Of a DNA stretch of 64,000 nucleotides, positions 3,044-24,765 are shown one piece after another. Both the position numbers and the translations under genes were made by a program. The stretch lies in NCBI RefSeq assembly GCF_900143535.1, contig NZ_FRFA01000004.1, positions 62,001 through 126,000 on the forward strand, in the 5' to 3' direction. Under the pieces are notes generated by a model. That model made no database searches. It was not told where the DNA came from and saw only the letters and a list, made by a program, of their open reading frames with translations. Numbering within the stretch: the stretch's first letter is position 1; each line of letters begins with the position of its first letter. The stretch is from Tateyamaria sp. Alg231-49. GTDB lineage: Bacteria > Pseudomonadota > Alphaproteobacteria > Rhodobacterales > Rhodobacteraceae.

Positions 3044-4267
3044 ATGCACGGCACTTTCTCATTTCTGATCTGGCTGATGGCCAGCGCGTTCTGGGTGTGC
3101 ACCGCACAAATCAGCAAAGCGCAGGAATCTGACCTGCCTGCCGAGCTGGATACATCGCAAGACTGGTCCAACAACTGGTCCGGAACTTGGCAGGAACGCC
3201 GCCAGCGACGACAGGACCGGTTCGATCGCTTCTTGAATTGGGAATTGTCCGACAACACCCTGCTCAGCTTCTACGGGCAACTCAATTTCCTTTATCTGGA
3301 TTATGATGACGACATTGATCCGTTCACCTCCTTTCGGGACAACGCGAATTCGCCGGGTCGACTGGGTTTGAGGCTGGAGACCAATTTCGACAACGGTACC
3401 GGGCTTTTGGTCAATCTTGAAACTGGCTTGCGACGCAGCACCTATGACGGGATCATAAGAGGCGGCGGTGTTCAAGACGACTTCGAGGACTGGGACAAAA
3501 CGCTTTTACGCAAAGCCGAAATGCGCCTTTCGATCCCGTCCTTTGGATTCCTGTCGATCGGTCAAGGCAGCATGGCGGGCGATGGCATCACCGGCTTTGA
3601 TTTCTCAAGAACCGGAGTGATCGCAACAAACAGCGTCGGCGACACGATTTCTGGCGTACCTGCCTATTTCGCAAACGGCGAGCAATCCGCTTCGCAATTA
3701 CAAGCCTTCTTTCCGACCTTCGACGGGTCGCGTCGGTTTCGGGTAAGGTATGACAGCGTCACCAAACGCGGCCTGTCTTGGGCCGCATCGGCCGGACGGG
3801 AAGTCCTGATCGATGATGACAACAACACCTATGCAGATGTTGCCCTGCGCTACGAGACGGAATGGCGCAACTTTCGGATCAAAACAGGTGTGGCCGCGAC
3901 CTATAACGATACATCTCCCGATTTCTTTTCCGGCTCGGTTGCCGGAATCGACGAAAAGACTGGGCTAAACTTTACCATCGCTGGCGGGGCAAATTCGCGC
4001 CAAGGCCGCTATTTGTATGGGAAGGTTGGCCTCATTCGTTCGTTCTTTGACTTTGGCGATACGTCCGTTTCTCTCGACTACTATCATAGCGACGAGCCCC
4101 TCGCCGGAACAAACAATTCACGATCCTGGGGGGCATCCATCGTTCAAAGTATCAAAACGAGCCAAACCGAGATTTATGCCACGTACCGCCAGTATGACGT
4201 AGATGCCATCGGGCGTGAAATTCAGGACGCCCGTGTCGTCGCGGCGGGCATTCGCTTCCTCTGGTAG
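3044..4267 (+). CDS. Porin-like outer-membrane protein
   Basis: A 407-residue protein with a signal peptide (MHGTFSFLIWLMASAFWVC, cleavage probably after ISKAQ) preceded by a strong ribosome site (gaggagg, 8 bases before ATG). The mature part has repeated amphipathic strands such as LSFYGQLNFLYLDYDDD, GRLGLRLETNF, AEMRLSIPSFGFLSIGQGS and RRFRVRYDSV. It ends in VVAAGIRFLW, with an aromatic C-terminal residue as expected for BAM-inserted barrels. The GQGSMAGDGI segment resembles the loop-3 region of proteobacterial general porins. It probably forms a diffusion pore; the substrate is unknown. Monocistronic: the flanking regions carry no partner. Confidence 0.75.
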   Translation: MHGTFSFLIWLMASAFWVCTAQISKAQESDLPAELDTSQDWSNNWSGTWQERRQRRQDRFDRFLNWELSDNTLLSFYGQLNFLYLDYDDDIDPFTSFRDNANSPGRLGLRLETNFDNGTGLLVNLETGLRRSTYDGIIRGGGVQDDFEDWDKTLLRKAEMRLSIPSFGFLSIGQGSMAGDGITGFDFSRTGVIATNSVGDTISGVPAYFANGEQSASQLQAFFPTFDGSRRFRVRYDSVTKRGLSWAASAGREVLIDDDNNTYADVALRYETEWRNFRIKTGVAATYNDTSPDFFSGSVAGIDEKTGLNFTIAGGANSRQGRYLYGKVGLIRSFFDFGDTSVSLDYYHSDEPLAGTNNSRSWGASIVQSIKTSQTEIYATYRQYDVDAIGREIQDARVVAAGIRFLW

Positions 4268-4583: not shown

Positions 4584-5183
4584 TCAAAAAACTACGCGAC
4601 AGGTCAGATTTATCCTTCCGCCTTTGGGGAGCAAAGAGGATGATCCAAACCGGATCCGGTCTACACCATGGTAGGTCCGTCGGGCCGCGCCTCCCATAAC
4701 CACCACATCGCCGCTTTCCAGCCATAACGACTCTGTCTTGCCACCGCGTGTGGTGTTGCCAATGCGGAACAGCCCCGCATCACCCAGAGACACTGACAGA
4801 ACGGGCCAGTCGAAACTGGCCTCGTCTTTGTCTTGATGCATCCCCATGCGCGCATCCTCCCCGTAGTAGTTGATCAAACAGCAATCCGGAGCACGCTCAA
4901 GCCCTGTCAGTGTGTGCCAAAGCTGCAGAACCGATGCCGGGATCGGAGGCCATGGCCCACCGTCAGGATGGGTCGGTGCGTAGCGATATCCTGAACGGTC
5001 GGCATACCATCCCACGGCCCCAGCCGACGTCATTCGCACGGACATCGGCTTGCCATAGGGTGTCTGAGGCGAGAACATCGGCGCTTGTTTGGCAATATCG
5101 CGCACATCTGCGACCAATCCGGCCTGTGCGGCGCTATTCAACTGGCCTTTGTAGACGTCAAAACCCCGGATGTGCGCGTGCAT
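4584..5183 (-). CDS. alkB: AlkB-type Fe(II)/2-oxoglutarate DNA dealkylase
   Basis: A 199-residue protein that should remove 1-methyladenine and 3-methylcytosine lesions by oxidative demethylation. The iron triad is visible: H116 and D118 in MGMHQDKDE, and H172 in RTYHGVDRI. The two arginines that bind 2-oxoglutarate lie in GRINLTCRV (R190, R196). LINYYGEDARMG is also typical. The ATG at 5183 is preferred over an ATG nine codons upstream because GAAGAGGG sits just before it and homologues start near the HIRGFDVY segment. It is divergent from dnaK across about 190 bp and shares that promoter region. No ada partner is adjacent. Confidence 0.93.
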   Translation of the reverse strand: MHAHIRGFDVYKGQLNSAAQAGLVADVRDIAKQAPMFSPQTPYGKPMSVRMTSAGAVGWYADRSGYRYAPTHPDGGPWPPIPASVLQLWHTLTGLERAPDCCLINYYGEDARMGMHQDKDEASFDWPVLSVSLGDAGLFRIGNTTRGGKTESLWLESGDVVVMGGAARRTYHGVDRIRFGSSSLLPKGGRINLTCRVVF

Positions 5184-23259: not shown

Positions 23260-23282
23260 ATCCACCACCGCTCAGCCATGCG
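23260..23282. repeat. Left 23-bp direct repeat (likely att-type half)
   Basis: Begins atccaccaccgctcagccat and is identical over all 23 bases to 23996-24018; flanking bases on both sides differ. On the minus strand it continues into GGCC TGA, the presumed original 3' end of the binding-protein gene, ahead of the rimP promoter. Confidence 0.85.
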
Positions 23283-23339
23283 TGAGTTTTTGATCAACTA
23301 TAGGTTGTCGAAGCCATAGTTTCGGTTATTCAATTACTT

Positions 23340-23750
23340 ATGGAATTTACTTTGGATGAACTCATCGATTTGCTGGCAGGTCGCAGGGGTGACCTTCAGG
23401 TCGGAGTCATTCCGCTTGAAGTTAGGCAACACTTTGGTTGTTCTCGCGAAGAGGTGTTCCTATCCTCAGAGTCTGCGAGACATATCATTGATGAACATGG
23501 AGACCATATAGGCAAGAATGAGCTTTTGCGGATTCCAGAAATTTTGACGAAAGGGATGTGGGTAGCAGACCGAAAGCTCGCATGTTCTGTTTCTTTTCAG
23601 ACAGAGACTCCGGCCATTCGTTTACTTGCAGCCATAAAAATAACGCGCAATCACTCACGAATGTACGTTTCTACTTTGCATCGAGCAAAGAAAAGACAAA
23701 CCAAGTCAAAGCTAAAACGCGGCCAATTGCTTAGGCCGCACTGGACCTGA
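23340..23750 (+). CDS. BECR/PBECR-like nuclease domain protein (cassette cargo)
   Basis: A 136-residue protein, the only clear gene of the cassette. A short helix-rich start (DELIDLLAGRRGDLQVGVIP) is followed by a domain with the layout VFLSSESARHIIDEHGD, LLRIPEILTKGMWVADRK, LLAAIKITRNHSRMYVSTLH and a basic end RAKKRQTKSKLKRG. This order (Ser-strand, Arg/His helix with a downstream His, Pro-Glu-Ile-Leu segment, Lys strand, S/T-strand with His-Arg) resembles the phage Barnase-EndoU-ColicinE5/D-RelE-like (PBECR) domains found at the ends of phage MuF and related proteins; H48, H53, K100, T112, H114 and R115 are candidate active-site residues. I infer an RNase or similar toxin-like activity. There is no clear ribosome site before the ATG and no obvious antitoxin. 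Family call by eye only. Confidence 0.55.
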   Translation: MEFTLDELIDLLAGRRGDLQVGVIPLEVRQHFGCSREEVFLSSESARHIIDEHGDHIGKNELLRIPEILTKGMWVADRKLACSVSFQTETPAIRLLAAIKITRNHSRMYVSTLHRAKKRQTKSKLKRGQLLRPHWT

Positions 23751-23769
23751 ATGAGTTGGTTGCCATGCG

Positions 23770-23817
23770 GTGGGGCCTGCCTGGAACCCCACAATGCGCT
23801 CCCATTTTCCCAAATGG
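23770..23817 (+). terminator. Two hairpins after the cassette gene
   Basis: GTGGGG (23770-23775) pairs with CCCCAC (23787-23792), then CCATTT (23802-23807) pairs with AAATGG (23812-23817). Neither has a T-run, so termination is uncertain. A 46-codon frame beginning right after the upstream stop (23751-23891) runs through both and is not convincing as a gene. The remaining 180 bp to the right repeat hold nothing I recognise. Confidence 0.35.
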
Positions 23818-23988
23818 TGCTACGGCCGGCAGATTTTCACCGTGTCGCGCATGGCATATGCTTGGTCAGCGGGATACTTCAAAGCACATGAGAAAAGTAT
23901 TCCGATCGCGTAGATTAATCAACCGAAAAATTGGATTCCTTGTTTTGAATCAAATACTTACTTAAGTCATTGAAAAGAATCCGAAATC

Positions 23989-24765
23989 TCAACTTATCCA
24001 CCACCGCTCAGCCATGCGCAGATTGTCGAGTGGCCAGGATTTGCCGACAGACAACGGCACGGCGACAGACGTGGCTGCGATGTGTGTCGGCGACCGACCC
24101 CCGGGCAGGATCTGGAAATCACGCGGGTCGGACAAGGGGTCAAGCGCCGCGATATCTGCGACATCGACCATCCCGTCGCGCAGCGCCTCGGAACGGACGG
24201 CATCTACGCTGAATTGCACAAACTCGACACTGTCAAACCAACCAGACTGCTTTTTCCAGTGGTTCGCCACACGCGCACCGATGAAATGGCGGCCCGGCTC
24301 CAGTTTTTGCACCGCATACAAGCCAGTGCCTGCACCAGTTTCAGATCTGATCTCGTATCCGGGATGCGCAAGAAGATAGGGCAGGTTTGGATTGGGCGTA
24401 TCGAGCACGATATCTGCGGTGACCGGATCAATAACCTCGACAGTCATGGGCAGTGACCGCAGATGTTCAGCGCTAAATACTTCACCGTCGTGAAACGCGA
24501 CATCGTCGCGCAACGTGAATCGCCAGCGCATCGCTTGTGCGTCTGATGACCAACCAGTCGCAAGATCACCGCGCAAAGTTCCGTCAGCGGCCACTTCAGT
24601 CAGGTTGTCGAACACGGTGGCTGCAACTGCCTGATCAAAAAGCAGCATGGACAATGCCGCCCGCAACCGCCCACCGCGCTGCGGTTGCGCGGACACACCC
24701 GTTGCCGCCAGCAACGCGGCTGCGGCGCCAGAGGTAAAGAGTGCGCGGCGGTCAATTCGGGTCAT
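23989..24765 (-). CDS. Short peptide-type ABC solute-binding protein, 3' end rebuilt by the cassette
   Basis: A 258-residue exported protein with a twin-arginine style signal (RIDRRALFTSGAAAALLAAT). It resembles family 5 (oligopeptide/dipeptide) binding proteins: VFDNLTEVAADGTLRGDLAT, then WSSDAQAMRWRFTLRDDVAF and HDGEVFSAEHL, IDPVTADIVLDTPNPNLPYL, and GTGLYAVQKLEPG. The family is usually about 500 residues, so this is a condensed form; the reading frame is clean, which argues for a stable short variant rather than fresh decay. No permease or ATPase genes are near. Its start overlaps the pip stop by four bases. The last two residues and the stop codon derive from the inserted cassette; the inferred original end is WWMA. 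Confidence 0.8.
   Translation of the reverse strand: MTRIDRRALFTSGAAAALLAATGVSAQPQRGGRLRAALSMLLFDQAVAATVFDNLTEVAADGTLRGDLATGWSSDAQAMRWRFTLRDDVAFHDGEVFSAEHLRSLPMTVEVIDPVTADIVLDTPNPNLPYLLAHPGYEIRSETGAGTGLYAVQKLEPGRHFIGARVANHWKKQSGWFDSVEFVQFSVDAVRSEALRDGMVDVADIAALDPLSDPRDFQILPGGRSPTHIAATSVAVPLSVGKSWPLDNLRMAERWWIS
23996..24018. repeat. Right 23-bp direct repeat (likely att-type half)
   Basis: Identical to 23260-23282 and lying inside the 3' end of the solute-binding-protein gene. A DnaA-box-like TTATCCACC overlaps its left edge but looks incidental. Confidence 0.85.

Follow-up and report, generated by a model that had tools for sequence, protein, structure and literature searches.

The window analyzed here, a 64,000-nucleotide stretch of Tateyamaria sp. 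Alg231-49 DNA, contains a gene for a solute-binding protein (SBP) that is continued at its 3' end by the right-hand copy of an exact 23-bp direct repeat, with a second copy at a spacing of 736 bp. The right copy gives the gene its present end, WWIS, and the left copy reads into WWMA followed by a stop; both the identical repeats and this arrangement are as the first-pass annotation described them. A perfect 23-mer at this spacing was estimated to lie far beyond chance, and a chance repeat was ruled out on these grounds. No further copy occurs in the window on either strand, and the region matches its own genome once. Between the two copies lie a small gene for a predicted nuclease and, behind it, a folded RNA most likely read from the opposite strand (Table 1).

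Table 1. Features of the SBP locus and its insert (positions in the window)
Feature	Position	Strand	Basis or remark
Left 23-bp repeat copy	23260..23282		Left edge of insertion; leads to ancestral SBP stop
Insert, 713 bp	23283..23995		Missing from 18/18 congeneric loci read
PBECR3-like predicted endoribonuclease, 136 aa	23340..23750	+	ORF, weak Pfam match, AlphaFold2
Structured RNA, ~100 nt	23760..23857	- (most likely; aligned as + strand)	Covariance model 93 bits, covariation, strand evidence
Putative RNA promoter	23894..23922	-	TTGATT 23922-23917, 17 nt, TACTTT 23899-23894
Palindrome-like block ACTTACTTAAGT	23956..23967		~100 nt beyond RNA, conserved in four cassettes; possible operator
Right 23-bp repeat copy	23996..24018		Now codes SBP end
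SBP_bac_5 gene	23989..24765	-	C-terminal end rebuilt by insert (WWIS); ORF and Pfam

The SBP sequence was searched in 101 genomes, its own included, and matched 27, its own among them; the junction was read in 18 congeneric loci (L007-L024). All 18 have one repeat-like copy in an uninterrupted site, with the SBP stop in the identical position, immediately followed by the rimP side. The exact WWMA end was found in 12, and in the other 6 the last one or two residues differ. In a further relative (L025/L033) both sides were joined by BLAST, at a resolution coarser than a base-by-base reading of the junction. The empty site expected in relatives was thereby borne out, and so was a clean insertion through which the SBP gene acquired its rebuilt 3' end. 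The simplest reading of these sequences is that the insert was gained in this lineage. Its G+C content is 45%, compared with 55% for rimP and 60% for the SBP gene.

The only ORF of at least 100 aa inside the insert is that of the nuclease, so that one nuclease-like gene is present, as had been claimed from the sequence. The protein matches PBECR3 (PF18812) with 20 bits (E=7e-4), below the gathering cut-off of 30 bits, in an alignment of residues 34 to 122 with profile positions 19 to 114 of 115, which is most of the domain. Scores for its relatives, where a Pfam match was obtained at all, also fell below the cut-off (17 to 21 bits for L038 and L003, 24.5 bits for the domain of L165). The domains of the free-standing cassettes and those attached to the phage head protein F align with each other by hhalign (probability 95.5%, E=1.5e-8). 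Among 394 family genomes, a relative of the window nuclease was found in one other (G035, locus L003; 42% identical), and two more, at 46 to 47%, came from a genome-contig scan (Rhodovulum marinum, L051, and an uncultured member of the Rhodobacteraceae, L052). The window nuclease is free-standing, whereas the relatives L039 and L165 are fused to Phage_Mu_F. The AlphaFold2 model, calculated from seven sequences, was confident (mean pLDDT 87.8). In a Foldseek search with it, RelE/HigB-type toxins appeared near the top (7vd7_A, probability 0.84; 3g5o_B, 0.69), as did unrelated folds, and 0 of 555 matches reached E<=0.001. The window nuclease had no match in PHROGs or PADLOC. A Lys residue is invariant in 16/16 aligned domains.

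The remaining right-hand half of the insert, which is not spacer, had been passed over in the first-pass annotation, whose account of the contents thus stood for the nuclease-like gene and fell short for a conserved RNA gene on the opposite strand. The block behind the nuclease genes is better conserved than the protein, with 88% identity over 112 bp between the window and L003. An RNA covariance model, R1, was built from eight copies, five of them nuclease-linked, and matched 20/394 family genomes and 5/289 class genomes, with its own genome in both counts. For the insert, Rfam (4,227 models) gave no credible match at E<=5; seven related loci yielded nothing but a tRNA at E<=0.5. A 27-base core of the RNA had zero matches in the genome-contig scan. 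The fold comprises the helices P1, P2, P2a (missing in some copies), P3, and P4, together with a pseudoknot in which the P2 loop pairs with the P4 region. In 34 distinct aligned copies, 93.6% of cells were paired, and 23 of 35 pairs, pseudoknot included, showed changes on both sides. None of 500 shuffles was as high on any of five pairing measures, although these counts are not probabilities, as the copies are related, and sliding the partners by 1 to 3 columns left only 36 to 46% paired. The alignment was fitted to the helices and not to the pseudoknot, which by itself was 93.8% paired with both-sided changes in 3/5 pairs; in five window-type copies, outside the pseudoknot count, a loop CTGCC and a partner GGCAG were seen by eye. 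The folding energy by itself was unremarkable (z of -0.65 over 146 nt and of -1.5 and -2.0 over the core). A plain terminator was ruled out by the pseudoknot and the covariation, and no terminator was found in the insert. The comparative data thus support well an RNA family that is without an Rfam match in these searches.

Read on the nuclease strand, the non-Watson-Crick cells of the alignment comprised 45 A-C and 16 G-U (36 and 7 without two poorly paired positions), and an excess of A-C over G-U is expected if the transcript comes from the opposite strand. The consensus energy was lower on the minus strand in 27/34 copies, and RNAalifold gave -39.5 compared with -29.8. A sigma70-like site was best at 31 to 36 nt before the minus-strand RNA in 20 of 30 noncassette loci, L094 having been left out for lack of sequence. 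These divided into 10/13 loci with a 100-aa ORF starting behind the RNA and 10/17 without one, and shuffles gave means of 0.53 and 0.80, respectively, with a maximum of 3 in each group. The start of head gene G could partly mimic a promoter signal in the G-followed loci; this is disfavored because the group without the ORF shows the signal too, although L081, which belongs to it, seemingly has a gene G whose open frame is not long. For the cassettes, the top-scoring site lay at -61 to -65 in 4/4, with a conserved leader like CCGCTGACCAAGGCAT. The single-site shuffle values were 1.00 for the window, no better than shuffles, and 0.21, 0.08, and 0.02 for the other cassettes. A general promoter scan returned nothing in the insert, and no terminator-like site was seen there. 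Transcription of the RNA from the minus strand, opposite the nuclease, is nevertheless well supported.

The RNA and the nuclease domain are linked. The distance from the end of the domain to the RNA is -44 to +4 nt in 17 of 35 RNA loci, and in the remaining 18 no domain was found within 6 kb or to the sequence end. The domain profile had drawn on 16 of these 17 loci, picked by sight, and five of the eight founding RNAs were themselves linked; two further linkage tests were therefore conducted. The first used 25 viral contigs chosen by exact RNA core patterns (L036 recurred and was not counted), all 25 of which were matched by the RNA model. In 13 of them, -59 to +11 nt separate the end of the domain from the approximate start of the RNA; in L175 it lies 972 nt from the RNA with a methylase-like ORF, named by eye, in between; and in 11 no nuclease domain was found, two of these being almost without upstream sequence. 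In this set, L186 and L187 seem to be copies of a single element, and L180 is the L165 contig.

In the second test, the domain profile matched 21/384 family genomes, and an unfiltered R1 match lay right or close behind the domain in 13 of these, ten with at least 76 bits and the others with 39 (L163), 37 (L161), and 28 (L164) bits. Behind the stop codon of seven of the other eight (L152, L155, L157-L160, and L162), a closing stem and hairpins can be made out by eye. The candidate RNAs of L158 and L160 are reversed relative to that of L159. A larger model, R2, did not match the by-eye RNAs of L152, L155, L157-L160, and L166 and reached no more than chance level for that of L162 (12 bits, E=0.87). 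A home-made motif finder for divergent RNAs was dropped after being positive in 397 of 600 random windows. The eighth, L156, has no RNA visible behind a domain in which Arg aligns with the otherwise invariant Lys, a single case. Among viral relatives found by protein, an RNA match was obtained in three of four distinct ones, the fourth (L166/L167) having a by-eye candidate only; protein scans of viral contigs that used the cassette nucleases and the domain of L158 yielded no confirmed match. Conversely, 10 of the 20 RNA-bearing family genomes are without a listed domain match, some of them perhaps because the domain search covered 384 genomes and the RNA search 394.

Many of the linked loci and viral contigs are Mu-like, with the RNA between the head genes F and G and the nuclease domain as the end of the F protein (matched by Phage_Mu_F in L039 and L165). 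Free-standing pairs are those of the window, L038, L003/L097, and L051. The F proteins of the phages RC1, RS1 (alike here), and vB_ThpS-P1 gave no domain match by profile, and R1 found no RNA in the stretches of these phages that were read; unfiltered R2 gave only chance-level scores in L140 and L142. Pairing is kept in the RNA-only copies, with a mean of 96.2% in 17 copies compared with 98.1% in 17 linked ones. A plasmid DNA search produced one convincing record, from a Komagataeibacter europaeus plasmid (L143, positions 4993 to 5089, 68 bits), in which the RNA lies directly behind other genes without a nuclease; a haemagglutinin-repeat fragment and an Imm45-family gene are found in the region. 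Of two phage DNA searches, one gave weak matches only and the other none. L082 and L096 each carry a tandem pair of RNA copies without a nuclease. The RNA-only copies of L078, L080, L085, L086, L089, and L094 lie in Mu-like remnants, not behind F, and beside genes that by eye are protease-like or small and HTH-like.

How the insert moved is less clear-cut. Direct repeats and an empty site at the 3' end of a gene are as in an integrative element, but the insert does not carry an integrase gene of its own. Site-specific integration by an integrase acting in trans, as first proposed, was not borne out. The three other free-standing cassettes (L038, L003/L097, and L051) lie elsewhere, and no shared terminal repeat was seen among them; nor did any of the 18 congeneric loci contain another insert, or a larger integrase-bearing element, at the 23-bp site. 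Around L038, the sequence examined contained no direct repeat of at least 8 bp. The 23 bp would fit either a recombination core or a long duplication of the target. An insertion sequence or MITE with shared ends was rejected because the cassette ends differ by eye, and an integron cassette because its features were not seen. Both repeat copies end in the 8-mer GCCATGCG, and stem P1 of the RNA is formed by the same 8-mer (23275, 23762, and 24011 on the plus strand and 23848 on the minus strand, among 9 occurrences in the window on both strands). This sharing is probably due to chance, because P1 of L038, a cassette at another target, has this 8-mer too.

In L003/L097 and L051, the pair lies inside transposons with an IS1595-type transposase, a call based on Pfam for L003 and on 75% DNA identity for L051; the L051 transposon has inverted ends and an 8-bp duplication by eye. 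These transposon-like islands (positions 3880 to 7376 of L051, and L097) also contain ORFs that by eye are HTH-like and ImmA/IrrE-like, and the pair together with the HTH-like gene forms a block that has opposite orientations in L051 and L097. The gene ahead of the L038 cassette we take to be pncB. The sequences behind it differ among relatives of G458 (L125 and L127-L132), and in L130 part of the pncB-like gene end is present a second time (143 bp, 77%). The end of this gene looks like a cargo hotspot.

As an explanation of the pair, we favor, with moderate confidence, a toxin with RNA immunity, in which the RNA neutralizes a PBECR-type nuclease that phages deliver in the capsid. The insert would then be a two-gene cassette of a small predicted PBECR-type RNase, presumably toxic, and a convergent folded RNA of ~100 nt. 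The RNA would be made from its own promoter and would most likely bind and neutralize nucleases of this family. In Mu-like phages, where the domain is the tail of head protein F, predicted in the literature to be packaged and injected, lysogens would be protected by the RNA; the RNA-only copies would be captured immunity; and the pair in the window, standing alone, would act as a toxin-antidote module. An antidote fits best because the RNA appears to have its own promoter, the nuclease is beside about half of the loci, and the fold stays intact without the nuclease. The other half of the loci, with no nuclease nearby, mean that the RNA may have another role. The wider proposal joins a capsid-delivered BECR-type RNase, a new pseudoknotted small-RNA family as its immunity, a promoter on the opposite strand, orphan capture by phages and plasmids, and stand-alone cassettes of ~0.7 kb; for this combination as a whole, we consider the case evenly balanced.

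The position of the RNA between F and G in Mu-like prophages, its strong structural conservation, and its presence beside the nuclease whether free-standing or F-fused would also suit a working partner, an RNA that the nuclease or protein F would bind in head assembly as a cofactor, a guide, or a packaging RNA. This is unlikely, however, as the fold persists in the RNA-only copies, one of which is on a plasmid and outside any phage head operon, and the free-standing cassettes have no head gene; a separate promoter on the opposite strand would also fit constitutive supply better than late coexpression. A local antisense regulator, which would pair with the 3' end of the nuclease mRNA or shut off the F-G operon in a type I-like manner, would explain why the RNA is convergent and directly behind the stop codon, but such a regulator does not need a conserved pseudoknotted fold and the RNA-only copies lack such a target beside them, making this reading quite improbable. 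It is very doubtful that the conserved block is instead a DNA element, namely a recombination site or terminus belonging to a minimal integrative element mobilized in trans, to which the exact 23-bp duplication with its empty site and the 8-mer common to repeat and P1 might point, given that L038 has this 8-mer at a different target, that the pair is cargo of IS1595-type transposons in L003 and L051 and lies inside the head operon in phages, and that the A-C over G-U bias and the fixed promoter indicate a transcript.

A toxin neutralized by RNA invites comparison with type III systems, in which the protein of ToxIN is of the ToxN type, as opposed to the BECR type here. The proposed logic, an endoribonuclease with a pseudoknotted RNA antitoxin, is that of ToxIN, but the tandem repeats, upstream RNA, and intervening terminator described for type III in the available part of PMC5086642 are absent. 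A single RNA lies here behind the gene on the opposite strand, and because the type III features are lacking, the pair was not filed under that type. In AbiF, a prophage RNA (RCd22) neutralizes a toxic protein in trans (PMC12373285, as far as the accessible text goes), and a prophage-borne toxic protein neutralized by a structured RNA is likewise what is proposed here. AbiF, however, is an Abi_2 protein related to Cas13, and its RNA is upstream and co-oriented with two hairpin motifs (same source), whereas the RNA described here is single, pseudoknotted, behind the nuclease, and opposite to it.

Also close are the PBECR domains of phage polyvalent proteins, including the C terminus of Mu F, which are predicted RNases packaged and injected by phages (PMC5512222, in the portion available). 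The predicted BECR-type domain is the same, free-standing or at the MuF end. That portion does not mention an RNA beside the domain and leaves the targets open; here the neighbor is an RNA, and these nucleases would gain a concrete, testable partner. A literature search whose coverage excludes most subscription journals found no title or abstract beginning on an RNA beside PBECR or MuF genes. In the MuF polymorphic toxins of temperate phages, the toxin domain is at the MuF C terminus and is argued to need immunity, which is expected right behind the gene and was sought among small ORFs there (PMC5576092, in the part accessible). The immunity sought was thus a small protein, whereas the neighbor found here is an RNA on the opposite strand. 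On this evidence, an RNA may serve as the immunity against a phage-delivered toxin, and such immunity would escape searches for small immunity proteins behind MuF genes.
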